Shown piece by piece: positions 6,762-63,491 of a DNA stretch of 64,000 nt (the stretch's first letter is position 1; each line of letters starts with the position of its first letter). This stretch comes from Armatimonadota bacterium (GTDB lineage: Bacteria; Armatimonadota; Fimbriimonadia; Fimbriimonadales; Fimbriimonadaceae), in contig JAKOXK010000048.1 in assembly GCA_029781035.1 (NCBI GenBank), forward strand, positions 1-64,000, read 5' to 3'. Under the pieces are notes generated by a model. It searched no databases and was not told the DNA's origin. It saw only the letters and a program-made list of their open reading frames with translations. The position numbers and the translations under genes were made by a program.

Positions 6762-7424
6762 TCAGTTTCCCTGCACCAACTTGGCTTTCACGGCCTTCAT
6801 CGCAGCCTCTGTCCTCGAGTTCACTTGAAGTGCCTTGAGGATGTTCGAAACGTGGTTCTTCACGGTCTTCTCGGCGATCGAGAGATGGTTGGCGATCTCC
6901 TTGTTTCGCATACCTTTGGCGATCAGCTCAAGGATCTCCGTCTCACGGTCGCTCAAGACGTAGAGCTCGGTATCGTCGGTCTCGTCATCGTCCTTCACTC
7001 TGCGGAAGTCTTCCAGGACCTTTGCCGCGATCTTGGGAGTCAGCTTCGATTCCCCTCGATGGGCCAGCCGGATCGCTTCGATCACGTCTTGCGGAGTGGA
7101 GGTCTTGAGCAAGTAGCCCATGGCCCCTGCCCGGATGGCTTCGAAGACGGTCTCTTCGTCTTCATTGACTGTCAGGACGACGACTTTGACGTCCTTTTCT
7201 TTGCGCAAGAGTCGGCGCATCAGTTCGAGCCCATCGACGCGCGGCATGTTAATGTCGGTACACAGCACGTCGGGTGGGTCCGAAAGGCATAAGTCGAGGG
7301 CTTCTTGGCCGTCTTTGCACACACCGATCACTTCGCACTCTGGCATCAGCGTCAGAGTGCGTTGGATGGCGTTGCGATAGCCGACCTCGTCATCTGCGAT
7401 GACGACCCGTATTGTCGTCGACAT
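6762..7424 (-). CDS. NarL/FixJ-family response regulator (REC + LuxR HTH)
   Basis: In this 220-aa protein the receiver domain (about 1-125) has the acidic pair D11-D12, phospho-acceptor D57 in 'CTDINMP', conserved T in 'VVLTVNEDE' and K in 'GYLLK'. The C-terminal GerE-type HTH has 'LSDRETEILELIAKGMRNKEIANHL' and 'AEKTVKNHVSNIL'. It is a DNA-binding activator switched by phosphorylation. No histidine kinase gene lies nearby, so it is an orphan whose partner is elsewhere. A TATTCT box (7432-7437) ends 7 nt before the ATG, predicting a leaderless mRNA. Two hairpins end the transcript. Confidence 0.95.
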   Translation of the reverse strand: MSTTIRVVIADDEVGYRNAIQRTLTLMPECEVIGVCKDGQEALDLCLSDPPDVLCTDINMPRVDGLELMRRLLRKEKDVKVVVLTVNEDEETVFEAIRAGAMGYLLKTSTPQDVIEAIRLAHRGESKLTPKIAAKVLEDFRRVKDDDETDDTELYVLSDRETEILELIAKGMRNKEIANHLSIAEKTVKNHVSNILKALQVNSRTEAAMKAVKAKLVQGN

Positions 7425-7431
7425 GCGGCGG

Positions 7432-7437
7432 AGAATA
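7432..7437 (-). promoter_or_regulatory. -10 box, leaderless type
   Basis: TATTCT on the minus strand ends 7 nt before the ATG at 7424; no Shine-Dalgarno sequence lies between. Confidence 0.5.
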
Positions 7438-7538
7438 CCCAGGCTGGCTCACTTGAGTCTGGCCTAATGTCGGAATCGGCGTCGGCAAAAGTATCAGGGC
7501 CGATCCCGACTCTCGACTCAGCAAACACGGGGCCGCGG

Positions 7539-7544
7539 CATAAT
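7539..7544 (+). promoter_or_regulatory. -10 box, leaderless type
   Basis: CATAAT is followed by exactly 6 nt and the ATG at 7551. There is no room for a Shine-Dalgarno sequence. Confidence 0.5.
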
Positions 7545-7550
7545 CGACCT

Positions 7551-9068
7551 ATGCGGCTTGCGGGGGCCCTTCTCCTTATTGCCATCGGACACACAGCCCA
7601 AGCGGCCGGATTCCGAGCCGAGGCACTCATGCTCGTCCAGTCGAGCGACTTCCAGGGCCTGCAAGACCTCGCCGACCGGCTCGTGACCGCATCCTCGATC
7701 GCCTTGACGCTCAAGACTGTCCCCGATTCAGGCGCCCAAGTCGATTGGTCGATCCTGATCCACCGGATCGGGGTGAAGCCGCTGAACGCCGTCTTTGGCA
7801 GCGGTGCCGGCGATTTCCTCACCTGGCTTGTCCAGCATCCGGACGCCCTCCAGGACTACATTCATGGCGGAACGGAGGGGGAGATCAACCTCCGCAGTTT
7901 CCAGGTCTGGCACACCCTTTGGAGGGACTTCACCGAAACGCGAGAGCCTGGACCGTGGCGGAACTTCGCTATTGCCAGCGCACTCGTCCAAGCGCAACAG
8001 GTCTATGCGATGGCAGACGGCAAGCCGATCGACCCGGTGGCCCGTTACCGCTTCTTCCGTGAGTCAGCCGAACAGGGCGCCCTCGTGCCCAGTTTCACCA
8101 AGGCTCCAGTCTGGCAACTTCGGTACGTCGCCGGGAGCTGGGCCATGGACTCCGACCTAGCCTGGGTTCGGGCCGCGATGAAACCTGATGTCCGGAACCA
8201 GTTTTCTGTCGGCGATGCTTGCATGATGGTCCCTTACCGAGAGACGAACGCCCAGGGAGTCAGCGTCCAGAGCGGCAGCAAGTTCTACGACGAAAAGCCG
8301 ATGACGCTGCAATTGATGACAGAGTATGGAGGGGTCTGTGGTGCCATTTCGCGGTTTGGGGCATCCAGTGCCCAAGCTCTCGGTGTGCCCGCTTTCCCCA
8401 TCGCCCAGCCCGGCCACTGTGCTTTCGTTTGGGAGAACGCTGAATCATCCTGGAAACTAGGCAACGATGTTTACGGTTGGGGAGCGAGCAGCCAGCATGA
8501 CGGGATTAGACTCCTGTGGGGAACAAGGCCCGTCTTCATCCCTCTATACAATCGGGCTCGGAGGGACGAGAAGGCGTTCTTGACCGCCGACCGACTGACC
8601 TACGCCGCTACGCTCAACCCACACAAGGAATCGATCCTCAGGAGCGCGACACTTTCAAACCCCCTCTTCCTCCCGGCCTGGCAACGCTTAACCCAGCTCC
8701 AGCCGACGTGGCTGGCCGGTGCAGCGAAGGCGCTCGGAACGTCGCCGTTTGCGGTCAGCGACCTCTTCGTTGGCGCCAAAGGAGACAACTACCTCGTCGC
8801 GCTCAAGTCGATCGCCATGGCCGACAGCGCTCCTCAACTCGGCACCCAGGCGTGGGCAGCGGCGGAGTTGGTCGCGCGCAAGGTGTTCGAGGACACCGGC
8901 AAGTCGCTTGACGTCTTTGGTGTCATCCAATGCAAGGAGAAGCACTTCCGTTGGGCGGGCACGGACGGGCCATCTCAAGCCGTCGTCAAGGCCGCAATCC
9001 GGGCTGTCGGATCGCGTGACGACATCAGTTCCCAGCTCGAGAAGTTGCTGTACGACGACAGGCCATAA
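7551..9068 (+). CDS. Secreted transglutaminase-like protein
   Basis: This 505-aa protein has a signal peptide (MRLAGALLLIAIGHTAQA). The central 'YGGVCGAISRFGASSAQALGVPA' places Cys263, and 'QPGHCAFVW' places His289, in the order and spacing of the transglutaminase-like Cys-His-Asp triad; 'GNDVYGWG' is a candidate for the acidic residue. Members may be peptidases, amidases or crosslinkers; the substrate is unknown. ATG 7551 is chosen because it starts the signal peptide and follows a CATAAT box by 6 nt. The stop codon overlaps the -10 box of the ABC ATPase gene that follows. Confidence 0.75.
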   Translation: MRLAGALLLIAIGHTAQAAGFRAEALMLVQSSDFQGLQDLADRLVTASSIALTLKTVPDSGAQVDWSILIHRIGVKPLNAVFGSGAGDFLTWLVQHPDALQDYIHGGTEGEINLRSFQVWHTLWRDFTETREPGPWRNFAIASALVQAQQVYAMADGKPIDPVARYRFFRESAEQGALVPSFTKAPVWQLRYVAGSWAMDSDLAWVRAAMKPDVRNQFSVGDACMMVPYRETNAQGVSVQSGSKFYDEKPMTLQLMTEYGGVCGAISRFGASSAQALGVPAFPIAQPGHCAFVWENAESSWKLGNDVYGWGASSQHDGIRLLWGTRPVFIPLYNRARRDEKAFLTADRLTYAATLNPHKESILRSATLSNPLFLPAWQRLTQLQPTWLAGAAKALGTSPFAVSDLFVGAKGDNYLVALKSIAMADSAPQLGTQAWAAAELVARKVFEDTGKSLDVFGVIQCKEKHFRWAGTDGPSQAVVKAAIRAVGSRDDISSQLEKLLYDDRP

Positions 9069-9069
9069 T
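9064..9069 (+). promoter_or_regulatory. -10 box overlapping the upstream stop codon, leaderless type
   Basis: CATAAT spans the TAA stop of the transglutaminase-like gene and is followed by 6 nt and GTG 9076. Confidence 0.5.
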
Positions 9070-9075
9070 CTTCGC

Positions 9076-10038
9076 GTGCCCTTGCTCGAACTCCGGAACC
9101 TCCATGTCGCCTTCGGCCCGGTCGAAGTGTTGCGTGGTGTCTCGCTGAGTGTGGAAGCAGGCAAAACCCTGGGTGTGGTTGGCGAGTCGGGCTGTGGCAA
9201 GTCCATGACCGGCATGGCGGTGATGGGGATGCTGCCCCTCACGGCCAAAGTTCCCGAAGGCGAGATCCTCCTTGACGGCCGCGATTTGCTCAGACTTTCG
9301 AAGCGAGAGTGGTTGGACATCCGTGGTCAGGAAGTCTCGATGGTCATGCAAGACCCGTTTACCTCTCTGAACCCGATGATGCGGGTCGGTAACCAGATTG
9401 CCGAGGTCTACCGGTTGCACCAGGGCCTTTCGTGGAAGCAGGGGCGGGAAAAGGCGGTCGAAATGCTGCACAAGGTCGGAGTGCCGGCGCCAGAGGAGTC
9501 CGCGCGCAAGTACCCCCACCAGATGAGCGGTGGCCAGCGCCAGCGCGTGGTCATCGCCTGCGCTTTCGCCTCGCAACCGAAAGTCCTCATCGCAGACGAG
9601 CCGACGACGGCTCTCGACGTCACGCTTCAGGCTCAAATACTGCGTTTGCTGAACGACCTCCAGCGCGAGCAAGGCACCGGCGTCATCATCATCTCGCACG
9701 ACATCGGTGTCATTGGATCTGTCGCGGACGAAGTCGCCGTCTTCTATGCCGGTCGCGTGGTCGAGCAGGGCTCGGTCGGACAAGTGCTGAAGTCCCCGGC
9801 CCATCCCTACACAAGGGCCCTTCTGGAAGCCATGCCCAAACGCGGGATGGACCGCCTGGCCCAAATCCCTGGACAGCCGCCTGACTTTGCCTCTATGCCC
9901 CAAGGCTGTTCGTTCCGGCCACGCTGCTCGTTGGCTTTTGACCGCTGTGCTACTGAACCCGGGATCATCGCCTGCGGCAACGCTCACGGTAGCGCATGCT
10001 GGCTAGCCAGCCCTGAGCGGGCCAGCGCCAAGACTTGA
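9076..10038 (+). CDS. Peptide/nickel-type ABC transporter ATP-binding protein (OppD/DppD-like)
   Basis: This 320-aa ATPase has Walker A 'GESGCGKS', Q-loop 'MVMQDPFTSLNP', signature 'MSGGQRQR', Walker B 'VLIADEPT' and H-loop 'IISHD'. The C-terminal oligopeptide-type tail ('GCSFRPRCSLAFDRC') contains the cysteines of the OppD/DppD extension, which in some family members binds a 4Fe-4S cluster. It should power uptake of peptides or related solutes. No permease, second ATPase or binding-protein gene is adjacent, so it is an orphan subunit. GTG 9076 gives the canonical 'MPLLELRNLHVAFG' start and sits 6 nt after CATAAT. Confidence 0.92.
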   Translation: MPLLELRNLHVAFGPVEVLRGVSLSVEAGKTLGVVGESGCGKSMTGMAVMGMLPLTAKVPEGEILLDGRDLLRLSKREWLDIRGQEVSMVMQDPFTSLNPMMRVGNQIAEVYRLHQGLSWKQGREKAVEMLHKVGVPAPEESARKYPHQMSGGQRQRVVIACAFASQPKVLIADEPTTALDVTLQAQILRLLNDLQREQGTGVIIISHDIGVIGSVADEVAVFYAGRVVEQGSVGQVLKSPAHPYTRALLEAMPKRGMDRLAQIPGQPPDFASMPQGCSFRPRCSLAFDRCATEPGIIACGNAHGSACWLASPERASAKT

Positions 10039-10767
10039 TCGTGAGGGCCTGTCTGCAAGAACAGGTCAACCCTGTTCACTGTCGGCTCGAGGAGGTGACA
10101 GCCGTGTGGGCCTTGGCTGCATCCCCGGTCTTCTTAGTCATGGGGTTGCCCGTCCGCAAGCTCTGCGCTGTCGATGCCAGGGCTGTCGCCATGCCCGCAT
10201 CGTTGCCCGTAGTCGTTGGACTGGGCTTGGGCTTCTCCCGGGGTATCGGCGCGGGCTTGGCTCTGTCTGGCGTCGAAGTGTTCCTTTGAGGCATGCAGAT
10301 CGGTCAAGCCACGGAATGGGAGCTTCGGCATTTCCGATGTCTGCCGTGGTGATGCACGCGGGACTGTCGGGAGTTCACCGGTGACGCATGTACGGCAGCG
10401 CGAGCCGTCTTTGGAGCCCTCGAGTTCGCTCTCGATGTCGCCCCTCTAGCCTTCGGCCCTAACCTCCAGGGTGAGTACGCTGCTGCCGTCCCTGGGATAG
10501 CGTTCTGTTTCCTCTCAACGACCCGATTGCGGGGCTCGTCCTAGAATGGTTCAGCCACGACGGTGATTGCCGTTCAGATTCGGGCACTGATCGTTGGGAT
10601 CCAATTCAGGCAAAGGTAACCAGGCTCCTGGACCAAGATCAAACGCGGAGGTATTCCCAAGGCAGCGCGCCTCTGCCGACGATTGCCTCGCCTGAGCGCC
10701 CAGTTCCATGCTAGGGCGTAACGGGCTGACGGGGCCAACCGTCCGACTACCAAGAGGGATCCTTCGG
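10039..10767. other. Gap of about 730 bp without a supported gene
   Basis: Short open frames exist on both strands near 10035-10294, but neither has convincing codon use, start signals or recognisable protein features. A 7-bp hairpin, GAACAGG-TCAAC-CCTGTTC (10059-10077), lies 20 nt after the ABC ATPase stop and may help end that transcript, though no T-run follows. The rest, up to the Shine-Dalgarno sequence of the vWA gene, shows nothing I recognise. Confidence 0.5.
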
Positions 10768-12744
10768 ATGAAGCGAAACGTTTTCACTTGCCTGCTCGCC
10801 TTTGCTTTAGCTCCTTGCGCTTTGGCGCAGGACGGTGTTTCGACGGGATCGGAGGCGCGTACCAAGTATTTGGGGAACCGGGGCGAGATCCCGGCTTCGA
10901 GCGAGATCGCAGTCGAGGACTTTGTCAACTACCACCGACACGAGCTACCGCGGCCAAAGTCGGGACAGGCCGTGGCGATGGACGTGCGATGGGGAAACGA
11001 CACGGTTCGCGAGGGCAGGCACTCTGTGTTGCAAGTCGGCTTCAGCACAGCGCTCGTCAATGATCGGAGGGGCCTCAGGCCGCTCAATCTCGGCCTGGTC
11101 ATCGACAAGAGCGGTTCGATGGCAGACCATGACAAACTCAGCCGCGTCAAGCAGGCGCTTCTTGCGTTGCTCAAGGAGCTTCGCCCGACGGACAGACTTT
11201 CGCTCATCGCTTTTGACTCGAATGCCGAGGTGGTGCTCCCCTCTCGTGCACTTGGCAATGGCCAAGAGGCGGTGTCGGTCATTCAAGGGCTCGGACCCGG
11301 CAGCTCGACAAACCTCGAGGCGGGCCTGCGATTGGGATACGACGAAGTGCTGAAACATGCCGACCGAGAATCGACCAACCGGGTCATTTTGCTTACCGAC
11401 GGGATAGCGAACGAAGGCACGACCGAACCAGCGGCGATTGCCAGTGAGTCGCAAAGCTACAACGACCGAGGCATCGACCTGTCGACGATAGGAGTCGGTG
11501 AAGACCTCAACAAAGACCTTTTGCGAACACTGGCCAAGAGTGGACGGGGCTTGTACCACTTCATTGGCGACACCGAAGACATCACGAAAGTGTTCGTCAA
11601 CGAAGTCCAGAGTCTCGTCTCTCCTGTCGCATCGGAGCCTGACTTGGAGATCACCTACGCCCCTGGTCTGAAAGTCGAGCAAGTCTACGGATTCGAACCG
11701 AAGACTTCGGGACGCACGGTGCGGATCCACTTGGACAACATGAACAGCGGGATGACTGAGGTCGTCTTGGTGCGGTTTTCGCACGATGCTGGCCAGACCA
11801 AGGAGTTCCCTGTCCAAGTGCGCCTGCGCTACCACGATCTGGAGCGGAACAAGAACGTCACCCTGGAAGATCAAGCTGTGTTGAGTTCTGGAGACACCGG
11901 CCGAAGAGGCGAATTGGACGACCCGGCTGTCGCCAAGAACTACACGATCGCCGAACTAGCCCAGTCGATCAAGGACATGGCCAAGGACTGCGAGTCCGGG
12001 CGTTACCGTGATGCCGAGGCAGGCGTGGCTGCTACTGTCGCCCGTACCGACCGTTGGTACCCGCACATGGAAGACGCGGACATCAAGCGCAACTACGACA
12101 TGGCCGTGAAGTACCGAGACTTGCTGCGGGAGCGCTACGGCATAGGCGAGTCGACCAATGATGACCACGTGACGTTTCGAGGAGACGAACGAAGGCAGGT
12201 TTCGACAAAACCAGATCACGCTGTCAGAAGCGGCCCCAACCTCATTCCGAACGGCGATTTTTCGCAGGGCAACAAAGGGTTCGTCTCTGACCGGCCCTAC
12301 ATCAAGCCGAGTCCCAACTGCCTTTGGGGCGGGTATTACACGGTCGTTCCGGCGTTCAACGACCCCGTCTGGCTCCACACGAACGTCGCTTCACAGCCTT
12401 TCGCCGCCCCCTTTGGTGGGAAAGTGCTGTTCATGAACACGGGTGGTTCCGACCAGTTCACCGTTTGGTCGACGAAAGTGAGCTGCCGCCCCCACAACCG
12501 GTATCGGCTCAGTTTTCAGGAGATTGGCCTCAGCGGAGGTCGTGACTGGGTGAACACGTACGAGATCCGGGTGAACGGTGCCCGAAGCGAGGCCCAAGTC
12601 GGCGGTGACGGCCAATACGTCGAAGTCGCCTATGACTGGGATTCAAGCTCCTCCACCTCGGCCACAGTCTCCATCGTCCGCCTGCCGAACGTCCATGGCG
12701 GCGGTGTTGTCGGGATCGCGAACATTCAGATGGTGAAAAAATAG
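10768..12744 (+). CDS. Secreted von Willebrand factor A domain protein with C-terminal jelly-roll-like domain
   Basis: This 658-aa protein has a signal peptide (about 1-20, ending ALA), an N-terminal 'EDFVNYHRHELPRP' segment typical of vWA proteins of the YfbK type, and a vWA domain with an intact MIDAS 'DKSGS' (D113, S115, S117) and 'LLTDGIANEG'. A helical region follows, then a C-terminal part starting 'LIPNGDFSQGNKGF' like DUF642/CBM folds. It probably mediates metal-dependent adhesion or complex assembly outside the cytoplasm. A Shine-Dalgarno GAGGGA lies 8 nt before ATG 10768. The last Lys codons double as the T-run of the opposite-strand terminator. Confidence 0.85.
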   Translation: MKRNVFTCLLAFALAPCALAQDGVSTGSEARTKYLGNRGEIPASSEIAVEDFVNYHRHELPRPKSGQAVAMDVRWGNDTVREGRHSVLQVGFSTALVNDRRGLRPLNLGLVIDKSGSMADHDKLSRVKQALLALLKELRPTDRLSLIAFDSNAEVVLPSRALGNGQEAVSVIQGLGPGSSTNLEAGLRLGYDEVLKHADRESTNRVILLTDGIANEGTTEPAAIASESQSYNDRGIDLSTIGVGEDLNKDLLRTLAKSGRGLYHFIGDTEDITKVFVNEVQSLVSPVASEPDLEITYAPGLKVEQVYGFEPKTSGRTVRIHLDNMNSGMTEVVLVRFSHDAGQTKEFPVQVRLRYHDLERNKNVTLEDQAVLSSGDTGRRGELDDPAVAKNYTIAELAQSIKDMAKDCESGRYRDAEAGVAATVARTDRWYPHMEDADIKRNYDMAVKYRDLLRERYGIGESTNDDHVTFRGDERRQVSTKPDHAVRSGPNLIPNGDFSQGNKGFVSDRPYIKPSPNCLWGGYYTVVPAFNDPVWLHTNVASQPFAAPFGGKVLFMNTGGSDQFTVWSTKVSCRPHNRYRLSFQEIGLSGGRDWVNTYEIRVNGARSEAQVGGDGQYVEVAYDWDSSSSTSATVSIVRLPNVHGGGVVGIANIQMVKK

Positions 12745-12775
12745 CAGGGTCAGGTCTCGGCTTGCCCGACCCTGC
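12744..12775 (-). terminator. Intrinsic terminator of the PEP-CTERM gene, overlapping the vWA gene end
   Basis: GCAGGGTC (12744-12751) pairs with GACCCTGC (12768-12775). On the minus strand the stem is followed by TATTTTTT, which is the complement of the final AAA AAA TAG of the vWA gene. Confidence 0.8.
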
Positions 12776-12782
12776 CAGGGAC

Positions 12783-13445
12783 TCAGTGCGTCTTCGCTTG
12801 GCGCCTTCGCAGCATGGCTGCGAGCCCGATTCCCATTGCAGTGAGCGAAACGGGCTCGGGAACAATCTTGATGCTGATCGACTCGTAATCGTAGATCGCT
12901 CCCGGATTGCCGAATCGTCCGATCGTCCAGTTGTACGAGCTGAGGTTGCCTAGATTGTAGAACCCGACCGCGTCGAGTATGTCCAGTGAGTGGAGAGCTG
13001 ACCCATTGGCGAACGTGCGGGAGAAGTCTAAGTCGTGCTGCGGAGTGAGCCCCGGGATACTGACGGTCCACGGCGTAGGCATGTCGACTTCACCTTGCGA
13101 AATGAAAAAGCCGTCTACCGCCGGATCATTGTCCCGAAGGACAAAGTACGCCAGACCGTTTGGCTGCGGCTTGACGATGTCGACGTTCACGCCACCGACG
13201 GTCATCACGAACGAGTCGAGATCGATGTCGTAGCCTCTCGTCGGATGAAACGGATTGTCGAGGTAGGAGTTCGAATCCACGACAAAGTCCATCGCAACAG
13301 GGTCGCCTGGCTTGACGCCGCTCATTCCGCCACCGATCACGTTGGATTCGACTTTGCCCAGAACTTCGATCTGGACGAACGTCGAGTGGGCCTGAGCGAC
13401 CATTGCCGCACTGGCCAAGATGCCAAAGAACCTGGAAACCTTCAT
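12783..13445 (-). CDS. PEP-CTERM sorted extracellular protein
   Basis: This 220-aa protein has a signal peptide (about 1-19, ending AQA), a beta-rich mature region without known catalytic motifs, and the C-terminal tail 'VPEPVSLTAMGIGLAAMLRRRQ', a textbook PEP-CTERM signal. It is exported and should be anchored or released by an exosortase encoded elsewhere. ATG 13445 is chosen because GGAGGAGG sits just upstream and the signal peptide begins there. A strong terminator follows its stop codon. Confidence 0.85.
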   Translation of the reverse strand: MKVSRFFGILASAAMVAQAHSTFVQIEVLGKVESNVIGGGMSGVKPGDPVAMDFVVDSNSYLDNPFHPTRGYDIDLDSFVMTVGGVNVDIVKPQPNGLAYFVLRDNDPAVDGFFISQGEVDMPTPWTVSIPGLTPQHDLDFSRTFANGSALHSLDILDAVGFYNLGNLSSYNWTIGRFGNPGAIYDYESISIKIVPEPVSLTAMGIGLAAMLRRRQAKTH

Positions 13446-13558
13446 GCCTCCTCCGCAATGCACTCGCCAAGCGGCCTGCACCAGGCGCGCTTGAACTTTG
13501 CCATAACATTATTGCACAGGTTGTGGCGTCGGGCACGTCCGCATTCCTACGGGCTCTT

Positions 13559-14524
13559 TCATCCCTTGACAAAGGTCATGAGGTTGTCTACTGTCGTAAA
13601 CGCAAGGCACGTGACCGTGTCGGCACCCCCATAGTAGACCGCGATCCGTCCTGTTGCCGAGTCCGCCAAGGCTGCGCACGGAAAGACGACGTCCGGAACA
13701 TCCCCAACCTGTTCGTAGAGCATCTGCGGCGACAAGAGATACGAGTCGCCGCGAGCGACGACGCGCCAGGGCTCCTCCAAGTCGAGCAGACAGGCTCCCC
13801 AATGATAAACGTAGCCGTTGCAACTGGTGAGCACGCCGTGATAAATCAAGAGCCAGCCTTCGTCGGTCTCGATGGGAACAGGCCCGGCACCGATTTTCGT
13901 GCTCTCCCAAGGCTGTTCCGGCTTCATGACCCACCGGTGTCTTCCCCAATGCACGAGATCGTCGCTCTGTGAGAGGAAGATCTCTCCAAATGGCGTGTGT
14001 CCGTTGTCGCTGGGACGGCTGAGCATCATGTAACTGCCTCCGATCCGCCTCGGAAAAAGCACACCGTTGCGGTTGAACGGCAACAGGGCGTTCTCGATCA
14101 TCTCGAACGACTTGAAGTCGCGGGTGGATCCGATTCCAATGGTTGGACCGTGCCAACCGTTGCACCAGGTCACGTAGTACCGGTCTTCGAGCCAGCAAAC
14201 CCGCGGGTCATAGCCGTATTCGGGCTGATCGATGCCGTCCGGAACGATCCATTCGATCGGTGCTGGCTCGATCTCCCATTGGAAACCGTCAGAGGAGAAT
14301 CCGGCATGGAGCCTCATCTCTCGGCGCCGGTCGTCACACCGGAACACGCCTGCAAAACCTCCCTCAAAGGGCACGGCTGCACTATTGAAGACGCTGTTGC
14401 TGGTGGGGGTGGCATTGCGTGGGACAATAGGATTGTGCGAACACCTCCAAACGGGTTCGGAGCAACCTGATGGTCGTTCCTGCCACGGGACATTCGGAAG
14501 TTCTGGGCCAACAATGCAAGGCAC
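13559..14524 (-). CDS. GH130-family glycoside phosphorylase/hydrolase
   Basis: This 321-aa protein has the five-bladed propeller pattern of GH130: 'NPIVPRNATPTSNSVFNSAAV' at the N-terminus, 'DPRVCWLEDRYYVTWC' with the conserved Asp/Glu, 'KIGAGPVPIETDEGWLLIYHG' and 'YYGGADTVTCLA' near the end. GH130 enzymes phosphorolyse or hydrolyse beta-mannosides. Whether phosphate is the nucleophile cannot be decided from these motifs alone. There is no signal peptide, so a cytoplasmic role on imported mannosides is likely. GTG 14524 is the likely start; a TATGAT box sits 3 nt upstream. Confidence 0.85.
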   Translation of the reverse strand: MPCIVGPELPNVPWQERPSGCSEPVWRCSHNPIVPRNATPTSNSVFNSAAVPFEGGFAGVFRCDDRRREMRLHAGFSSDGFQWEIEPAPIEWIVPDGIDQPEYGYDPRVCWLEDRYYVTWCNGWHGPTIGIGSTRDFKSFEMIENALLPFNRNGVLFPRRIGGSYMMLSRPSDNGHTPFGEIFLSQSDDLVHWGRHRWVMKPEQPWESTKIGAGPVPIETDEGWLLIYHGVLTSCNGYVYHWGACLLDLEEPWRVVARGDSYLLSPQMLYEQVGDVPDVVFPCAALADSATGRIAVYYGGADTVTCLAFTTVDNLMTFVKG

Positions 14525-14600
14525 ACTCCATCATATCTGCTCGCAAAAGCACGTGCACCGGGCCGTCTCGCCGGTGCTATGATGCCACGTTGGTGCTGTT

Positions 14601-15026
14601 ATGGGAAAGTTGAAAGTCTTCGGGTGCGTGATCTTCCTCATCCTGGCCATTGGTGGCGGGATCCTGTTCCAGGACTGGCGGAAGAAGGAGACGGCCAAGA
14701 CCGAACAAGCCGCCTGCAACTACTTTGCCTCCTTGCTCGCCCAAGATCCGAACATCAATATCAACGCCCAAAACGGTGGCCCAGTGCTCCACCCGTGGTA
14801 CCTGAAGCAGACGCCGACGATGCAGGAAATCGAAGACAAGACCGGGATCGAAAAGACGTCCGACGGCGAATGGTACACCTGGACGTTGCACTGTGATCCA
14901 GACGGCGGAACGAACGTGCGCGAGGTCAAGATCAAGGTGAAACTCGACGCCCAGAACAAGCTGTTCGTCCTCTCGGGGATTCATGGAACAGCCACGGCGT
15001 ACGCCGCAGGTTGGCAACCCAACTAG
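14601..15026 (+). CDS. Membrane-anchored protein of unknown function
   Basis: This 141-aa protein has one N-terminal membrane segment (about residues 5-23), then a soluble domain of about 115 aa rich in Asn, Asp and Lys with a 'GEWYTWTLHCDPDGG' core. It probably faces the periplasm. I do not recognise a family. The promoter box TATGAT (14578-14583) would give an 11-nt leader without a Shine-Dalgarno sequence. Confidence 0.65.
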   Translation: MGKLKVFGCVIFLILAIGGGILFQDWRKKETAKTEQAACNYFASLLAQDPNININAQNGGPVLHPWYLKQTPTMQEIEDKTGIEKTSDGEWYTWTLHCDPDGGTNVREVKIKVKLDAQNKLFVLSGIHGTATAYAAGWQPN

Positions 15027-15227
15027 CTCACCTCGACGGGAATCCCGTGAGGCCTAGCTCGCGAGGCCATTGAGAGACTAAGCGGCGTGGTCAACGGCGT
15101 GACCGAAGTCAGACCCTGGGCCGTGTTGCCCTCGTCAGTCACCGCGGACGACGACTCACCCTCCTGGTGAGCGCGACCGTAAGGACTCTGTCAAAGGACC
15201 CTAGACCGCGGCAGGGAACCCGGATCC

Positions 15228-17765
15228 CTAGTTCAGGGTGATCTCACGGATCACGAGCCAGTTTCCATTGTCCTTAGTAAGCCGAATGCGAACCGCTTTG
15301 ACGGGAAACGCAACCGGCCCGCCCTTGGCCACTCCCTTGTCGAACTGCCCGATCTCCTTCCATCTCGTCCCGTCAGGCGATACCTCGACGACTCCTGCAT
15401 GGACATAGTCGTCCGGATGGTCGGGGGCACCCGTGACGACGGAGAACGAAGACACGTTCTGGGGGGAGTCGAGTGTCACGGTGAACGTCGAGCCTTGGGA
15501 GGGCTGACCGTAAGTCCAAAAGTACGTGTCGTCCAGTCCGTCAAAGGCCAGCTCAGGCACGTTGTCACCGTAGTGGTTCCACGAGGTCTCTATGTGGCAC
15601 GGTCGCAAAGGAAATGTGTACAGCGCGGCCATGGTCGGGGACGTCGACCCGTCGGGCATGAAACGTGTTGCCCTTAGTTTGGCTGAGTGAGTCAACTCGA
15701 TGGGGCCTGTGTATTGGGGAGAAGAGCTGTCCGGTTCGGTGCCGTTGAGCGTATAGCGCACGGTACCGACCTCCTTCAACGAGCCGACTGTAACTTGGAT
15801 CGGCTTCTGGAATGTCCCTCCCTTCGGAGTCAGCAGGGGAACGGTGTCCAAGCCCTTGACGCTAGCGATTGCGCGGTCAAACTTGGCCAAGTTCCTATCC
15901 AACCACCACGGCCGGTTTTCCAGGTTCCAGGCGTCGGCATAGGTCTTCCGCAACCAGGAGAGTCGGAACGAGAGGTTGTCGGATGCTTCGGGGAACGAGT
16001 CTCTTCCAGCGACAGGGTGGATCTCAGCCACGGTCGCAGCTTCAGCCACGAGGTACTCCGCCCGATTGTAAGCCACCATTGTGGCGTCCAGAGCCTCGGC
16101 GTTGAACCGGGCCTTGAGGGTCGCGGCATGGAGTCCCTGCCACACCTCGTTCAGAGAGTTGCCGAACGAATCGATCTGTGCCTTGGTGTTCGCAGATGCA
16201 TCCAAATCCCACGGCAGTCGCCAGAAAGCCTGGTCAGACATTCCATAGCTCAAGGGGTTCTGCCTGAGTCGCGAGAGCTGCCAGAAGGTCTTCGAAAGGG
16301 ATCCATCGGGCAGACCGAAGAACAGCCTCGGGAACGAGTCGTCAAAAGCAGCGAGCCTTGCCTCCCGCTCTTGATCGAACTTCGCCGGATCCGCGCCGGC
16401 TAGCTTTTCACCAGCAGGAATGGCCGGATTCCAAGACACTTCGGCACCCCATGCCAATGGGTACCAGTTGTTGTTGAAGAGGTTCTCCCCGGTGTCGTCC
16501 CACGTCGTGTTCAACATCCCCTCGGCTCCAAATCGGACTCCATCGCGGACGAAGTTGCTGATGTTGACCGTCGCTGCATCGAGATCGGGAAAGATTTGCC
16601 CCCAGCAGGAGACACCTGGACAGACGAGAAACTTGAATCCGATCTTCGTGAACGGCTCGATCTGGTCGTCAAAGCTCTTGCGGGGATCGTATCCCCAAGT
16701 CAGCACGACCAAGTCCTTCGGGAGGTTCTTGCGGATATCAGGGTATTGCAGGGCGATGTCGCCCCACATCATGACGGTCTTTTGGTGGGCCTTGAGGAGA
16801 GAAGCGACCCGGTTGATATGCCCTGCGTACACATTGCCCAGCCCTTCTTTTTCGACCATAGCTTTGGCCGGGCCTTCCCCCAAGCCGTAGGTCTCGTCGC
16901 AGTTGATGTTGAACAGCGGTGACGAATACGCGGGCGCGATCTCGTCGTAAACGTCCTTCAGGAACTGATAGCTCTCCTCCTTGGCCGGTGTGATCACGTT
17001 CGGGGTCTCCGCGAGGTTCTGGTAACCAGGGACACTCAGAATGTTCGCGAAGTGGCCGAAGCTTTGGAAATTGCCTATGAGCTGAACGTGTCTTTCACGG
17101 CAGTAGGCGTCGAGCTCCCTGACTTCCTCAGTCGTTATGCCGTCGGCAGGGGCGATCGTCGGATGCTTCTTGAGCTTGAAGACGTGCTCGGTGTAGAGGG
17201 TGAAAGCGTTGAGCTTGTACTCGCTCATTTGCTGGACTTCTTTCTTGAGAAAGGCCAAGGTCGGAATCGGGCCACGGCTGATGTCGTCCTGCCAGCCTCG
17301 AATCTTGAGGGCGGGCCAGTCGACGATGTCTACGCACGGGATGGCGTCTCCCACCCTGTTCGCCCTCACCAGTTGCTTCAGCGTCTGAACCGCGTAGAAC
17401 ACGCCAGCCTCGGACTTTCCGGCACAGATGACCTCCCTCGGCCGAACACTCAAGATGTAGGACTCGTCACTGGCCTCAGCCGGCAGAACCAAGTGATACT
17501 GCTTCAGCTTTTCGTCAAGCCCGGCCACTTCGCCGATCCGAGTGACGTAAACGGCGAGCTTCTTGTTGTCGTAACTGGTACCAAAGCTAGCAGGCGACTC
17601 GTCGATCAGGTCCCTTGCCGAAGCGGCGTGCGACTTGTCCGTGACATGGACTTCTGCCCGTCGATCGAGAGGAAACTCGCCCGCCGCCGTCACCACGGTC
17701 CGAGGTGTAGGGATCAAGTAAAGCTGTGGTGTCATCAAGCCAAGGGCGACGAGCGTCGAGACCAT
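15228..17765 (-). CDS. GH20 beta-N-acetylhexosaminidase with accessory domains
   Basis: This 845-aa protein carries a short N-terminal hydrophobic segment, a GH20 domain 2 ('YILSVRPREVICAGKSEAGVFYAVQTLKQL') and a GH20 catalytic barrel with the Asp-Glu pair D290-E291 in 'NINCDETYG'. It ends with a chitobiase-type C-terminal Ig-like module ('VRYTLNGTEPDSSSPQYTGPI') and an F5/8-type discoidin domain ('ELAFDGLDDTYFWTYGQPSQG'). It should remove terminal GlcNAc/GalNAc from glycans by substrate-assisted catalysis, outside the cytoplasm. TAGAAT ends 6 nt before the ATG, predicting a leaderless mRNA. Confidence 0.93.
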   Translation of the reverse strand: MVSTLVALGLMTPQLYLIPTPRTVVTAAGEFPLDRRAEVHVTDKSHAASARDLIDESPASFGTSYDNKKLAVYVTRIGEVAGLDEKLKQYHLVLPAEASDESYILSVRPREVICAGKSEAGVFYAVQTLKQLVRANRVGDAIPCVDIVDWPALKIRGWQDDISRGPIPTLAFLKKEVQQMSEYKLNAFTLYTEHVFKLKKHPTIAPADGITTEEVRELDAYCRERHVQLIGNFQSFGHFANILSVPGYQNLAETPNVITPAKEESYQFLKDVYDEIAPAYSSPLFNINCDETYGLGEGPAKAMVEKEGLGNVYAGHINRVASLLKAHQKTVMMWGDIALQYPDIRKNLPKDLVVLTWGYDPRKSFDDQIEPFTKIGFKFLVCPGVSCWGQIFPDLDAATVNISNFVRDGVRFGAEGMLNTTWDDTGENLFNNNWYPLAWGAEVSWNPAIPAGEKLAGADPAKFDQEREARLAAFDDSFPRLFFGLPDGSLSKTFWQLSRLRQNPLSYGMSDQAFWRLPWDLDASANTKAQIDSFGNSLNEVWQGLHAATLKARFNAEALDATMVAYNRAEYLVAEAATVAEIHPVAGRDSFPEASDNLSFRLSWLRKTYADAWNLENRPWWLDRNLAKFDRAIASVKGLDTVPLLTPKGGTFQKPIQVTVGSLKEVGTVRYTLNGTEPDSSSPQYTGPIELTHSAKLRATRFMPDGSTSPTMAALYTFPLRPCHIETSWNHYGDNVPELAFDGLDDTYFWTYGQPSQGSTFTVTLDSPQNVSSFSVVTGAPDHPDDYVHAGVVEVSPDGTRWKEIGQFDKGVAKGGPVAFPVKAVRIRLTKDNGNWLVIREITLN

Positions 17766-17771
17766 GGCCTG

Positions 17772-17777
17772 ATTCTA
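17772..17777 (-). promoter_or_regulatory. -10 box, leaderless type
   Basis: TAGAAT on the minus strand is followed by 6 nt and ATG 17765 of the GH20 gene. Confidence 0.6.
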
Positions 17778-17822
17778 GTCCATCGTTTCAATCCCATAGT
17801 TGCCTGGGATTCCGGACCCGGT

Positions 17823-18419
17823 CTACTGAAGAGGTGGCTCAAATCCCAACGTCACGTCGTCAGCACAGAACTTGCCCTTTCCTGCGAGCTCAAAGCCAAA
17901 ACAGAGATTGCGGGCACCGATGGGCACCCTGCCCTTCAACGTGTACTTCTTCCAGCCCACGCCTCCAGCCCGGACCCCATCCTTAAACTCGGGCAGAGAC
18001 CGGTGTCGTCCATCGTCGAACCAGGCCCACATTGTCGCCGTCGGGCTGGCTGACGGATCGAGCTTGATCCATGCGGTCAATGTGAACTCCTGGCCCCAGC
18101 GACCTTCCATCGGGAGTGCCTGCAGAGTCACGCCCGGACCTTCATAAGTGGAGGAGGAAGACATGACGAGGCAAGCCCCGTGCTCGGGCATGCCGCTTTG
18201 TGCGACGGCCACCTCGAATCCTGCTTCACGCTGAGGTGCGGGCACGAACCACCCCAGGGGGCGTCCCAACTCGTCGGACATCTCGAACTGACCGTTGAGG
18301 ACGGTCACCTGACTTGACTGGCTTCCGTAGGTCAATCCCAAGACAAGGGCATAGGCCGCGGTCATGCCCGTGGCCACCGAGCTCAAACCTCGAAGCACTC
18401 CCAATAGAGACCCTCTCAT
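17823..18419 (-). CDS. Secreted jelly-roll (CBM4_9-like) protein
   Basis: This 198-aa protein has an N-terminal membrane or signal segment ('GMTAAYALVLGLTYG') followed by 'LNGQFEMSDELGRPLGWFVP', 'FTLTAWIKLD' and 'FCADDVTLGFE'. These are typical spots of CBM4_9-like beta-sandwiches that bind carbohydrate. There is no catalytic motif. It sits directly upstream of the GH20 gene in the same direction (57-nt gap with the GH20 promoter), so a shared role in glycan use is plausible but not shown. Confidence 0.6.
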   Translation of the reverse strand: MRGSLLGVLRGLSSVATGMTAAYALVLGLTYGSQSSQVTVLNGQFEMSDELGRPLGWFVPAPQREAGFEVAVAQSGMPEHGACLVMSSSSTYEGPGVTLQALPMEGRWGQEFTLTAWIKLDPSASPTATMWAWFDDGRHRSLPEFKDGVRAGGVGWKKYTLKGRVPIGARNLCFGFELAGKGKFCADDVTLGFEPPLQ

Positions 18420-18716
18420 CAGTCATTGCACCTCTCTTGCCTTTCGGAGCCAGCGGCGTCCCGAAAGTCACTTTGCCGACATTACGCAAGGCTCTCTGAC
18501 CACGTTTCGGCCTTGTGACAATGGGCGCATACTGGATCCCGGCCAGGCGAAGTGCCTGGTCACAGGGACCCTGGCCCTGAATGGGCCGAAGGCTTCACCA
18601 AGTGGGACGAGACCATGAGTGGAACACGTGAACGAGAGCATCGTCTGCGGCTAGTGAAGAGTTGAGCGGGGTATCTTGAACCCCCGGTGCCCGGTGGCAG
18701 GCACTCGTAGCCAACA

Positions 18717-22009: not shown

Positions 22010-22015
22010 TACTCT
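22010..22015 (+). promoter_or_regulatory. -10 box, leaderless type
   Basis: TACTCT is followed by exactly 6 nt and ATG 22022 of the DUF255 gene. Confidence 0.5.
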
Positions 22016-24184: not shown

Positions 24185-24206
24185 ACCTGATGTAAACTTT
24201 CGGCCC

Positions 24207-26520: not shown

Positions 26521-26573
26521 CCGGTCATTGTGACCCGAACCAGGGTTATGAACACTAGGACGCAACCTTACGG

Positions 26574-26603
26574 TTGACAAGAGCTTCACCAGTAGGTCAG
26601 ACT
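26574..26603 (+). promoter_or_regulatory. Promoter of the TetR gene, leaderless type
   Basis: TTGACA (26574-26579), an 18-nt spacer and CAGACT (26598-26603) are followed by 6 nt and GTG 26610. This is the clearest two-box promoter of the leaderless set. Confidence 0.7.
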
Positions 26604-33430: not shown

Positions 33431-33437
33431 AGACAGA

Positions 33438-33443
33438 ACAATA
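33438..33443 (-). promoter_or_regulatory. -10 box, leaderless type
   Basis: TATTGT on the minus strand is followed by 7 nt and ATG 33430. Confidence 0.45.
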
Positions 33444-33476
33444 CCTAAACAGCATCTTTTTGTCTACTCTATTGAT

Positions 33477-35611: not shown

Positions 35612-35626
35612 GCAAGAATTATTGCA
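35611..35626. promoter_or_regulatory. BlaI-type operator, site 1
   Basis: TGCAA-GAATTA-TTGCA overlaps the blaI start codon and -10 box. It has the same half-sites and 6-nt spacer as site 2, 31 bp away. Confidence 0.65.
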
Positions 35627-35646
35627 CAGAATCCCGCTATTTGCAA
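35618..35646 (-). promoter_or_regulatory. blaI promoter, leaderless type
   Basis: On the minus strand TTGCAA (35646-35641), a 17-nt spacer and AATAAT (35623-35618) are followed by 6 nt and ATG 35611. Confidence 0.7.
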
Positions 35647-35657
35647 TTTTTTTTGCA
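35642..35657. promoter_or_regulatory. BlaI-type operator, site 2
   Basis: TGCAA-TTTTTT-TTGCA covers the -35 box of the blaI promoter; it is identical in half-sites and spacing to site 1. Confidence 0.65.
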
Positions 35658-37707: not shown

Positions 37708-37718
37708 AGGCCACCTGA

Positions 37719-39836
<2,118 letters not shown>

Positions 39837-41532: not shown

Positions 41533-41538
41533 TACCCT
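41533..41538 (+). promoter_or_regulatory. -10 box, leaderless type
   Basis: TACCCT is followed by 7 nt and ATG 41546 of the dipeptidase gene. Confidence 0.4.
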
Positions 41539-44156: not shown

Positions 44157-44162
44157 TAGAAT
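44157..44162 (+). promoter_or_regulatory. -10 box, leaderless type
   Basis: TAGAAT is followed by exactly 6 nt and ATG 44169. Confidence 0.6.
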
Positions 44163-48024: not shown

Positions 48025-48102
48025 AGGGCAGCAGGTTACACGAGGAAGAAAATACCGTTCGATGCCCGCGGTCATATAATGAAGGCCCCATTAGTGGGAT
48101 AC

Positions 48103-52689: not shown

Positions 52690-52695
52690 TATACT
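52690..52695 (+). promoter_or_regulatory. -10 box, leaderless type
   Basis: TATACT is followed by exactly 6 nt and ATG 52702. Confidence 0.6.
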
Positions 52696-56634: not shown

Positions 56635-56640
56635 CATAAT
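56635..56640 (+). promoter_or_regulatory. -10 box, leaderless type
   Basis: CATAAT is followed by exactly 6 nt and GTG 56647. Confidence 0.5.
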
Positions 56641-58744: not shown

Positions 58745-58838
58745 CGGTCTAACGTTATGAACGACCCTAGGGCCTGAATGGTGCCCGGTGATCTCCGATA
58801 AGCCAACGGAATCCGTCCGTAGGTTCCTGAACCTGTAA

Positions 58839-59972: not shown

Positions 59973-59978
59973 AGTTTA
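59973..59978 (-). promoter_or_regulatory. -10 box, leaderless type
   Basis: TAAACT on the minus strand is followed by exactly 6 nt and ATG 59966. Confidence 0.55.
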
Positions 59979-60073
59979 CGTGGAGCGCACCTGAGGCCTA
60001 AGGGCGAGAGCAAATCGCAGCAGTCAGAACGGTCTGCGGAGACCCCCGAAACGGGCTGGTGCCGTCAGCAAGC

Positions 60074-60079
60074 TAGAAT
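60074..60079 (+). promoter_or_regulatory. -10 box, leaderless type
   Basis: TAGAAT is followed by exactly 6 nt and ATG 60086. Confidence 0.6.
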
Positions 60080-60085
60080 CACCGC

Positions 60086-60850: not shown

Positions 60851-60871
60851 GTCGTCGCAGGTTCGGTCTGC

Positions 60872-62371
60872 TCAGTCCTTCCTAGTCGCGCTCGGCCGAG
60901 CCCGAAGCTTGGCCCAAGCGCGCAACGCGGCAATATCTTCGGCCATCGTTCGACTGAGCGGTACTTGAGCTTTGGCCTCTCCGGAAAGATCCTGGTAGGA
61001 CAGCTCTCTTCCTTCATCGAAAGCGTGGTTCAAGGCGCCGACCACGATCTGTTCGATCTCGGCACCGCTGTAGCCGTCAGTCTCCTTGGCGAGTTCGGGA
61101 ACCTTGAATTTGCGCGGATCTCTCTTGCGCTTGGCCAGATGGATCTTGAAAATGTCCTTGCGTTCGTCGAGATCTGGGAGGTCGACGAAGAAGATCTCAT
61201 CGAACCGACCTTTGCGCAGGAGTTCTGGCGGCAACGTCGACACGTCGTTGGCCGTCGCCACGATGAACACCGGCTTCGTCTTGTCCTGCATCCAGGTCAA
61301 GAACGTCGAGAAAACACGCGCGGTCGTCCCGCTGTCACTGACCCCGCCGCCACTCATCCCGGCAAAGCCTTTCTCCAGTTCGTCGATCCAGAGGATGCAC
61401 GGGGCCAAGCTCTCCGCGATCCGGATCGCCTTTCTCATGTTCTCCTCGCTCTGCCCGACCAAGCTTCCGAAGACCCGGCCCACATCCATCTTCAACATCG
61501 GCAGCGAGTAAGCCGCAGAGATCGCCTTGGCAACCAGGGACTTGCCGCAACCTTGTACGCCCAGCAGCAACACGCCCTTCGGATAGGGGATACCAAACTC
61601 CCGCGCCGCGTCGGTGAAGCTCTTCTCCCGCCGGTTCAGCCACTCCTTGAGCAGGTCGAGGCCCCCAACGTCGTTCAGACCCTGGTCAGCCGGATAGAAC
61701 TGGAGTATTCCCGTCTTCCTGACGATCTGCTTCTTCTCTTCGATGATCTGCTCGACGCTGAGTGTCTTGGTTTCGACAAGACTACGGGCCAAAGCGCTCT
61801 CGATCTCGTCCGCCGTGAGCCCTTGGGCGGATCGAACCAACATCTCTGTCTGCTTCGCACTCAGATCAACTTTCAGGTTGGGGTTGTCCTTGACCGCGGC
61901 CACCGCCTCTTGGATCTGCTTCTCAATGTCCTCTGGGCCTGGGAACGGAAACTCCATGACCGTGACGTCCTTCTCGAGTTCCAGGGGCAGATTGAGGTTC
62001 GGCGAAACGATGAACAGGGTCTGCGTCCGTCCCCGCAACCTATTGGCCAAGTCCCGCATCAACCTCACGACCCGAGAGTCCTTCATGTAAACATGAAAGT
62101 CTTTGAGGAGGAAAACGGTGTACTCGGGCGCCTCGTGCACGAGCGCCAAGGCTTCGAGCTCGCCTGGAAGGGATGTTGGCTTGACCGGGCCTGTCGTCCG
62201 ATTGACAGGCGGCTTCATCCCTTGAGTCACGCTCCACGAGTGCAGGTTCCGCTGCAGCTTCTGGCTGACTTGCCTGAGAGCTTCCTCAACCCGCCTTTCC
62301 TCCCAGGTCACGATGTAGACGATGGGGTACTTGGCGCGCATCAAGACTTCGATCTCGTGCAAGGGATCCAT
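60872..62371 (-). CDS. Ycf46-like AAA ATPase
   Basis: This 499-aa protein has a degenerate N-terminal AAA-like half ('[18 protein letters not shown]', '[13 protein letters not shown]', '[19 protein letters not shown]') and a canonical C-terminal AAA module. The latter has Walker A 'GVQGCGKS' (271-278), Walker B 'ILWIDE' (326-331), sensor 'VATAND' and arginine finger region 'LLRKGRFDE'. This layout matches Ycf46 of cyanobacteria and plastids, whose role is poorly known. ATG 62371 begins '[16 protein letters not shown]'; TAGGAT lies 8 nt upstream. It is divergent from the LacI gene, 94 bp away. Confidence 0.92.
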
Positions 62372-62452
62372 GTGCCGAAATCCTACCTCTTGGCCCCGTT
62401 GCCCAGGCTCCAGGAGTCTGAGGCGTCGGAGCCACCCTGTGTCGAACTCCGA

Positions 62453-62458
62453 TATAAT
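62453..62458 (+). promoter_or_regulatory. Consensus -10 box, leaderless type
   Basis: A perfect TATAAT is followed by 7 nt and ATG 62466. Confidence 0.65.
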
Positions 62459-62465
62459 GCGCCGG

Positions 62466-63491
62466 ATGGCTGAAGCGGGCGCCCGACCCAAACGAGTCAC
62501 GCTTGTTGACGTCGCCAAAGTGGCCGGAGTCTCTGTACAGACCGCATCACACGTGATGGCCGGCAACATGACGGTCCGTCTCCCTGAATCGACTCGGAGC
62601 CGGGTCGTGGCGGCTGCCCAACAAGTCGGGTACAGGCCGAACCGGTACGCCCAAGCTATCCGCAGCGGCAAAACGAACGTCGTCTCCGTCTGGATGCCCC
62701 TAGACAGGCCCAATACGTCGTATTTGCGAATGCTCCATCTGATCAGTGAGCACGCCAAGACGACCCCGTATCAACTGATGATCGTTGGACTCGACCGCGA
62801 AAGCGCCCTCGGTGCGACGGCAAAGGCTCCCCAAACCTGGCCCGTCGACGGGGTGATCAGCATCGACGCAGGCAAAGCGATTGAAGCCTTTCGCAAGGAC
62901 AGTTACAATGACACGACGCCCGTCTGCGTCCTCGGCTACGAAGAGGTGGCCAATGGAGACACCGTGGCCTGGGACGTCCTTGGCGCGGAACGCCGAGCGA
63001 TACAGGAGCTGATCGCCAAGGGCTGCAGGAAGATCGTGCACGTCACGCTCGATTGGATCCTGCAGGACTTCCCCCGGGAAAGGCGGCGCACTGGCTACAC
63101 CGAAGCCATGACCGAAGCCGGCCTCGAACCTGTCTTCTTTGGTTGCCAAAGCGAGTCGAGCGGTGCGATCGCGAATGAGTTCAGCCAGTTCCTTGACGTG
63201 CACGGGGTGCCCGACGCCATCACCGGGATGACCGACACGCTCGCCATAGGTGCGGCGCGGGCTTTGCTGACCCGTGGTGTCCGCATCCCTGAAGACTGCA
63301 GAGTGTTCGGTTTTGGCGACTATCCAGAGTCAGAGGACTTCATGATCCCGATCTCGACGATCAGCCCGCCTCTGCCCCGCATCATGGAGACCGCTTGGTC
63401 TTGGCTCACTGAGCGTATGCAGGATCCCAACCTCGAACACCGATTTGTCGAGATCCCGATGCAGATCGTCGAACGTCTCTCTTCGCAGTGA
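62466..63491 (+). CDS. LacI-family transcriptional regulator
   Basis: This 341-aa protein has an N-terminal HTH 'VTLVDVAKVAGVSVQTASHVMAG' (about residues 11-33) with hinge 'QQVGYRPNRYAQAIRSGKTNVV', then a periplasmic-binding-protein-like sugar-sensing domain ('GVISIDAG', 'AITGMTDTLAIGAARALLTRGVRIPEDCRVFGFGD'). It probably represses sugar-use genes in response to a sugar. No transporter or hydrolase gene is next to it, so its targets are elsewhere. A perfect TATAAT lies 7 nt before ATG. Confidence 0.94.
   Translation: MAEAGARPKRVTLVDVAKVAGVSVQTASHVMAGNMTVRLPESTRSRVVAAAQQVGYRPNRYAQAIRSGKTNVVSVWMPLDRPNTSYLRMLHLISEHAKTTPYQLMIVGLDRESALGATAKAPQTWPVDGVISIDAGKAIEAFRKDSYNDTTPVCVLGYEEVANGDTVAWDVLGAERRAIQELIAKGCRKIVHVTLDWILQDFPRERRRTGYTEAMTEAGLEPVFFGCQSESSGAIANEFSQFLDVHGVPDAITGMTDTLAIGAARALLTRGVRIPEDCRVFGFGDYPESEDFMIPISTISPPLPRIMETAWSWLTERMQDPNLEHRFVEIPMQIVERLSSQ

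Follow-up and report, generated by a model that had tools for sequence, protein, structure and literature searches.

In the first 64 kb of contig JAKOXK010000048.1 (C14) of an Armatimonadota bacterium of the family Fimbriimonadaceae, a stretch called here the window, many genes carry a hexamer resembling the -10 box of bacterial promoters only a few nucleotides before the start codon. This raises the question whether such hexamers are promoters placed so close to the gene that the mRNA would lack a leader, sites used by the ribosome, or chance matches. The preliminary description of the window named 21 of them, and each of the 21, with its gap and start codon, is present in the sequence as it gave them. 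With a probability of about 0.9, we consider the boxes to be -10 elements of the lineage's housekeeping promoter, a large minority of which would give leaderless mRNAs. Judging from the sequence, leaderless transcription is very likely in this genome, and the mRNAs of genes with a box at the start very probably begin at or beside the start codon.

The genome (3.42 Mb in 98 contigs, GC content about 0.60) was sampled over 757 kb, that is, the window and 0.69 Mb of other loci. The gene caller relied solely on coding statistics and on the type of start codon, and no motif entered into the choice of starts. After 20 of the 587 called genes, open-ended or with less than 60 nt of upstream sequence, had been dropped, 567 starts were usable, 51 of them in the window and 516 outside.

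Position and composition of the box

Alignment of the upstream sequences of these starts revealed the positional peak of TANNNT which the preliminary description had expected: the motif is found at -12 before 35 starts and at -13 before 26, versus about 3 per position in shuffled upstreams, and internal in-frame and off-frame ATG/GTG codons have no such peak (1-2 per position, scaled to 567). At a gap of 6-8 nt, TANNNT precedes 13 of the 51 window starts and 0.57% of 1397 internal ATG/GTG codons there (p ~3e-18), 58 of the 516 starts outside the window (p ~8e-55), and, in the whole sample, 71/567 starts versus 0.56% of internal codons (p 4e-70). We give practically no credence to the idea that the boxes reflect chance, namely a loose definition applied to upstream DNA. 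The definition of the preliminary description was indeed loose ([ACT]ANNNT or NANAAT), and such a box is found at this gap before 6.6% of 15308 internal codons; however, it precedes 22/51 window starts (6.7% of the 1397 internal codons; p ~3e-13) and 139/567 starts of the sample (p 6e-42). The positional peak, the comparison with internal codons and the mixture model described below already exclude this explanation.

A three-part mixture model of starts (background, box and Shine-Dalgarno), with the box matrix learned on the 757-kb sample including the window's 51 genes, assigned a weight of 0.307 to the box and of 0.345 to an AGGAG-like Shine-Dalgarno motif. With the matrices fixed, the box weight was 0.000 both at internal codons and in shuffled upstreams. 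The posterior of the box exceeds 0.5 at 161/567 starts and 0.7 at 125/567, the latter being referred to as confident sites. A stricter count took only boxes between -15 and -11 that exceed 6 bits and subtracted the mean count of 40 column-permuted decoy matrices; it gave 92/565 at called starts versus a decoy mean of 17.7 (13%), and 129/565 versus 35.6 (16.5%) when any plausible start was allowed; for the 192 genes with an upstream neighbour on the opposite strand the corresponding shares were 18% and 27%. Thus, of the original interpretation, the reading of the boxes as -10-like promoter elements, spaced so that transcription would start at the start codon or a few bases from it, is supported, while the dominance claimed for leaderless starts does not: they form a large minority only, Shine-Dalgarno starts being at least as common. 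Shine-Dalgarno initiation is retained beside the box-led starts; the 3' end of the 16S rRNA reads GGATCACCTCCTTA (reverse complement), with an intact anti-Shine-Dalgarno sequence.

The box learned by the model is [T/C]AnA[A/C]T, located most often at -12, or GG[T/C]AnA[A/C]T with the preceding GG. Among the 125 confident sites, 58% have G at the second base before the box and 45% at the base next to it. G precedes 61% of the 84 boxes beginning with T (posterior >0.6), and C is the commonest preceding base (44%) of the 45 beginning with C (posterior >0.6). A spacing of exactly 6-7 nt, as originally proposed, proved too narrow; 6 nt is the commonest gap, but confident sites spread over 5-12 nt (60 at 6 nt, 16 at 7 nt, 12 at 8 nt, 17 at 9 nt, and the remaining 20 at 5, 10 or 12 nt, including 7 at 10 nt and 6 at 12 nt). 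Their start codons are 88 ATG, 35 GTG and 2 TTG. Codons 2-6 are A-rich in Shine-Dalgarno-led genes (0.29) but not in box-at-start genes (A 0.20), and in both classes the first 40 nt are predicted to fold less strongly than sequence within genes.

A -35 element was not found as a feature of the class: there is no information peak upstream of -5 in the 125 aligned boxes, and TTGACA-like hexamers show no preferred spacer to 147 boxes. A -35/-10 pair occurs within 200 nt in 16/71 divergent box genes, versus a shuffled mean of 9.5 (standard deviation 3.1), an excess that speaks against an absent -35, although shuffling also breaks the box itself. The classical sigma-70 promoter (-35 TTGACA, spacer of 16-18 nt) is not characteristic of the class and occurs in single cases, such as the gene at 26610, where TTGACA lies, by eye, 18 nt upstream of the box CAGACT. 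Upstream of the 16S gene, TATAAT is accompanied by TTGATT 18 nt further upstream, also by eye.

Promoter element or ribosome-binding site

A box above 6 bits, mostly after GG, was also found 15-21 nt before 17 of 20 tRNA genes, versus 1.35 expected from shuffles, and of 719 matrices with permuted columns only one attains a mean score as high as the real one; the three upstreams below 6 bits include that of the window's tRNA-Cys. The scan covered 36 loci of this genome and 35 of three others (G001, G003 and G010), with five short contigs of this genome and the G023 loci excluded. Of the 20 genes, ten belong to this genome and the rest to the other three, and 19 are solitary while one is the first member of a pair; a cluster of 22 genes in locus L211 and the second tRNA of the pair in L212 were left out. 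Since tRNAs are untranslated and yet have the same box, the box most probably belongs to transcription.

Alternatively, the box might be an AT-rich site that binds the ribosome or enhances translation, of the kind present in Bacteroidota, and the true promoters would lie further upstream. Non-canonical AT-rich sites have been reported in the FCB group (PMC9581028), and loci from Bacteroidota obtain a weight of 0.18 with the same matrix (internal control 0.01). We regard this as very improbable. Apart from the tRNA genes, the matrix resembles the sigma-70 -10 box and not a run of A/T. Moreover, when a second box was sought at -120 to -19, an excess was seen in the other gene classes and not in genes with a box at the start: 15/93 Shine-Dalgarno-led genes (60 decoys: mean 6.8, maximum 15) and 16/81 genes with neither signal (60 decoys: mean 5.5, maximum 14), versus 7/94 box-at-start genes (decoys: mean 5.6, maximum 13). 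Gene context argues in the same direction. A confident box is borne by none of the 57 genes that overlap an upstream gene on the same strand, versus 56/192 genes with an opposite-strand neighbour; for same-strand gaps of 0-20, 21-60, 61-150 and >150 nt the counts are 8/44, 22/56, 18/99 and 15/94, and at contig or stretch edges 6/25.

We therefore favour the promoter reading, for which the tRNA genes and the search for second boxes give strong though indirect evidence. The boxes would be -10 elements of the ordinary housekeeping promoter GG[T/C]AnA[A/C]T, as a class without a -35 element. The usual distance of about 6-7 nt from the -10 box to the first transcribed base would, for a large minority of genes, end at the start codon or immediately upstream of it, and the ribosome would have to recognise such leaderless mRNAs by their 5'-terminal AUG or GUG. 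In the other genes the box may lie further from the start and be followed by a leader, in many cases with a Shine-Dalgarno sequence. In a weaker form of this proposal the promoters are real, but short leaders of a few nucleotides remain on many of the transcripts, of which only a part would be strictly leaderless. Gaps of 8, 9, 10 and 12 nt at 42 of the 125 confident sites (12, 17, 7 and 6, respectively) would correspond to leaders of about 1-6 nt, whereas the gap is exactly 6 nt at 60 sites and 7 nt at 16; we hold the weaker form to be possible but the less probable one. As a leader of 1-6 nt is too short for a usable Shine-Dalgarno sequence, the mode of initiation would differ little.

Several results weigh against the promoter reading or restrict it. 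The window is not typical: TANNNT is more frequent before its starts than before those in the remainder of the sampled loci (odds ratio 2.7, p 0.007). The share of box-at-start genes varies with the method, from 0.31 in the mixture model to 13-17% in the strict decoy-corrected count, and can thus be put at roughly one start in eight to one in three; single decoy matrices score as many as 55 (versus 92) and 114 (versus 129). In the search for second boxes, the count of the Shine-Dalgarno class ties the best decoy, and the result for overlapping genes is partly confounded, because TANNNT is scarce inside genes anyway. Presence of the box in both partners of 44 reciprocal-best pairs showed no significant correlation (p 0.20); for 18 such pairs with aligned starts p was 0.0498. 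Some of the comparison sequences also behaved poorly. All cross-genome comparisons were made with fixed matrices from this genome, because free re-learning in small or control samples gave meaningless matrices. The loci of named lineages were rpoB neighbourhoods with few genes, and among them the intended actinobacterial positives scored low (Streptomyces 0.00, Mycobacterium 0.08 with 19 genes, others 0.00), while the Bacteroidota weight given above indicates that the matrix is unspecific in AT-rich genomes; Cyanobacteria gave 0.00, Bacillota 0.03 and Chloroflexota 0.04. Because these loci were all so poor in genes, three further controls were added; Escherichia coli gave 0.01 and Thermus pTT27 0.17, in favour of the promoter reading, and Deinococcus radiodurans MP1 only 0.07, against it. 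Finally, what the sequences show is the box, its spacing and fixed position, its occurrence before tRNA genes and its conservation near the start; the transcription start, recognition by the main sigma factor and leaderless translation are inferred.

The sites in the window

The 21 sites named in the preliminary description, and the box before the tRNA gene, are listed in the table. Sixteen of the 21 score above 5 bits in the learned model; those at 22022, 33430-, 41546 (printed as 5.0), 58744- and 62371- score lower (a minus after a coordinate marks the reverse strand). The statement that no Shine-Dalgarno sequence occupies the gap holds for 19 sites at a 5-bit threshold and fails for 33430- and 62371-. 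The motif-blind caller chose the listed start at 18/21 sites, the differences being at 3737, 26520- and 52702. For 52702, counting residues from the listed start places the beginning of a Creatinase_N domain at residue 10, which favours that start over the caller's; from the start at 3737, the FMN_red domain begins at residue 3. The orthologue of the 44169 gene in G003 has TAAAAT in the same position. As a side observation, the 45 nt upstream of 33430- (33431-33475) and of 35611- (35612-35656) appear by eye AT-richer than other upstreams, and no drop is visible there in the 4-kb composition.

Table. Proposed -10 boxes of the window, in order of position (SD, Shine-Dalgarno score)
Feature	Position	Strand	Gap and start	Gene	Score and remarks
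-10 box TATACT	3723..3728	+	8 nt before ATG 3737	FMN reductase	8.4 bits; caller picks ATG 3716
-10 box TATTCT	7432..7437	-	7 nt before ATG 7424-		5.5 bits
-10 box CATAAT	7539..7544	+	6 nt before ATG 7551		7.9 bits, SD 1.2
-10 box CATAAT	9064..9069	+	6 nt before GTG 9076	ABC transporter ATPase (Pfam ABC_tran)	7.9 bits
-10 box TAGAAT	17772..17777	-	6 nt before ATG 17765-	GH20-like (Pfam)	8.8 bits
-10 box TACTCT	22010..22015	+	6 nt before ATG 22022	DsbH-like thioredoxin domain	4.4 bits; family upstreams 15/30 >5 bits
-10 box TAAACT	24193..24198	+	8 nt before ATG 24207	2-hydroxyacid dehydrogenase (Pfam)	8.2 bits
-10 box CACAAT	26527..26532	-	6 nt before GTG 26520-		6.8 bits; caller picks ATG 26442
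-10 box CAGACT	26598..26603	+	6 nt before GTG 26610	TetR regulator (Pfam)	6.8 bits
Weak box TATTGT, doubtful	33438..33443	-	7 nt before ATG 33430-		1.3 bits, SD 5.1
-10 box AATAAT	35618..35623	-	6 nt before ATG 35611-	penicillinase-repressor family (Pfam)	6.4 bits
-10-like box TATAGT after GG	37718..37723	-	16 nt before tRNA gene	tRNA-Cys (37632-37707-)	4.3 bits
-10 box TACCCT	41533..41538	+	7 nt before ATG 41546	PepV-like dipeptidase	5.0 bits; family upstreams 19/30 >5 bits
-10 box TAGAAT	44157..44162	+	6 nt before ATG 44169	DinB family	8.8 bits
-10 box TAACCT	48033..48038	-	8 nt before ATG 48024-	glutamate dehydrogenase	5.9 bits; family upstreams 7/12 >5 bits
-10 box TATACT	52690..52695	+	6 nt before ATG 52702	M24 peptidase	8.4 bits; caller picks ATG 52753
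-10 box CATAAT	56635..56640	+	6 nt before GTG 56647	FecCD (Pfam)	7.9 bits
Weak box TAACGT, doubtful	58752..58757	-	7 nt before ATG 58744-		best-scoring site instead CATAAC, 3.5 bits, gap 9
-10 box TAAACT	59973..59978	-	6 nt before ATG 59966-	DegT aminotransferase	8.2 bits; family upstreams 13/29 >5 bits
-10 box TAGAAT	60074..60079	+	6 nt before ATG 60086		8.8 bits
-10-like box TAGGAT	62380..62385	-	8 nt before ATG 62371-		4.7 bits, SD 5.3; Shine-Dalgarno also possible
-10 box TATAAT	62453..62458	+	7 nt before ATG 62466	LacI regulator (Pfam)	9.2 bits

Relatives, known systems and significance

The trait is not limited to this genome. Box weights were 0.34 (202 starts) and 0.32 (230 starts) in two genus mates, 0.31 (59 starts) in a family mate and 0.23 (80 starts) in an order mate, which supports the trait as common to these four relatives. 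Upstreams of orthologues of four window genes, the majority from the same family and the others from elsewhere in the order, contain a box above 5 bits at -18 to -10 in 54/101 cases, versus 6.7% of shuffles; the 101 include this genome's four copies, two of which (59966- and 48024-) exceed 5 bits. The counts for each of the four protein families are given in the table. The orthologue loci were the best 30 matches among 61 genomes for each of three proteins; one of the 30 DegT loci (L328) had no match near the N-terminus and was left out, as were L116-L133 (<50% identity) from the glutamate dehydrogenase count. The flanks of these orthologues have diverged and the box stays close before the start, also where GTG replaces ATG. 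Many PepV upstreams below the threshold still have TANNNT near -12, and the family counts speak for the low-scoring boxes at 22022 and 41546.

Two side observations were made among the relatives. Glutamate dehydrogenase paralogues at L116-L121, from order mates, have AGGAG-type Shine-Dalgarno sites, and the group to which the window's enzyme belongs has mostly a -10 box near the start codon; the two paralogue groups thus seem to differ in initiation mode. In the genus mate G003, locus L211 (contig C5, 500001-520000) contains 22 tRNA calls by ARAGORN within 16 kb (4178-19889), including one called tRNA-Pyl (anticodon CTA). This cluster resembles a tRNA array and may be carried by a mobile element.

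In the phylum outside the order, the pooled box weight was 0.10 and that of Shine-Dalgarno 0.59 (226 starts from 19 stretches of about 20 kb in 17 genomes; a twentieth stretch, L243, belongs to the same order and was left out). Outliers in this pool were G043 (0.15 and 0.35 in its two stretches) and G034 (0.34), with 11-14 genes per stretch. Among the matches listed, best-segment identity of RpoB to the 80 named matches kept was at most 58%.

The best RpoD-like matches of this genome (G000, contig C3, 44847-45530) and of four family mates score 327-332 bits, below the family cut-off of 354 bits, which 32 of the 61 genomes pass. Loss of sigma region 4 was considered as a cause of the missing -35 element and rejected: the best RpoD-like protein gives a Sigma70_r4 match of 68.4 bits that spans positions 2-50 of 50, so that recognition of a -35 element need not be lost. 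The best RpoD score falls as the share of box-at-start genes rises (Spearman -0.72 over 18 genomes, kinship uncorrected, with 5-26 genes in each of the 17 foreign genomes and G043 entered as the gene-weighted mean of its two stretches), a correlation which we treat as a lead only. It is a tentative thought that one order, perhaps together with the families of G043 and G034, moved independently to a -10-only promoter and large-scale leaderless initiation, alongside divergence of the main sigma factor.

The promoter type itself is already known from Mycobacterium and Deinococcota, and this lineage is very probably a further member; no description of leaderless initiation in Armatimonadota or Fimbriimonadia was found in our searches of the open-licence literature. 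In M. tuberculosis, 26% of the genes that have a primary start site yield leaderless transcripts; its TANNNT promoters lack a -35 motif, and in 49% of them [G/C][A/G]N precedes the box (PMC3898074). The likeness lies in a -10 box alone, without a conserved -35; the differences are that start sites were measured there, and that here the middle of the box is more informative ([T/C]AnA[A/C]T), C stands first in about one third, and GG precedes. In Deinococcus-Thermus, TANNNT lies near the start codon, mostly without a -35, in about 30% of open reading frames on average (PMC12340547; PMC3160421), an arrangement like that described here, and reporters showed that the motif acts as the promoter -10 region (PMC12340547). 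Unlike the present case, that evidence came from reporters and from another lineage, and all analysed species of that phylum have the trait, whereas in our case it is pronounced within the order and weak in the majority of the 19 stretches from elsewhere in the phylum. More generally, two surveys report a TA-like signal about 12 bp before the start, with leaderless genes in 207/953 bacterial genomes (Zheng et al. 2011, PMC3160421), and leaderless transcription predicted by GeneMarkS-2 in 21.6% of bacterial species (as reported in PMC9581028). A study of anti-Shine-Dalgarno classes lists Fimbriimonadia with the value 25 and, in the portion consulted, reports no leaderless genes for the class (PMC10783764).

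For annotation, the consequence is that, in this lineage, gene finders which expect a Shine-Dalgarno sequence are prone to place such starts wrongly, and that the box may serve as a second start signal, as at 52702, where box and protein domain boundary agree. The order appears to be a further one among bacteria in which the promoter, not the leader, sets the start of translation. As relatives in the phylum are mostly without the trait, related lineages can be compared, and the independent move considered above, if true, would make the phylum a natural experiment on the origin of leaderless initiation.

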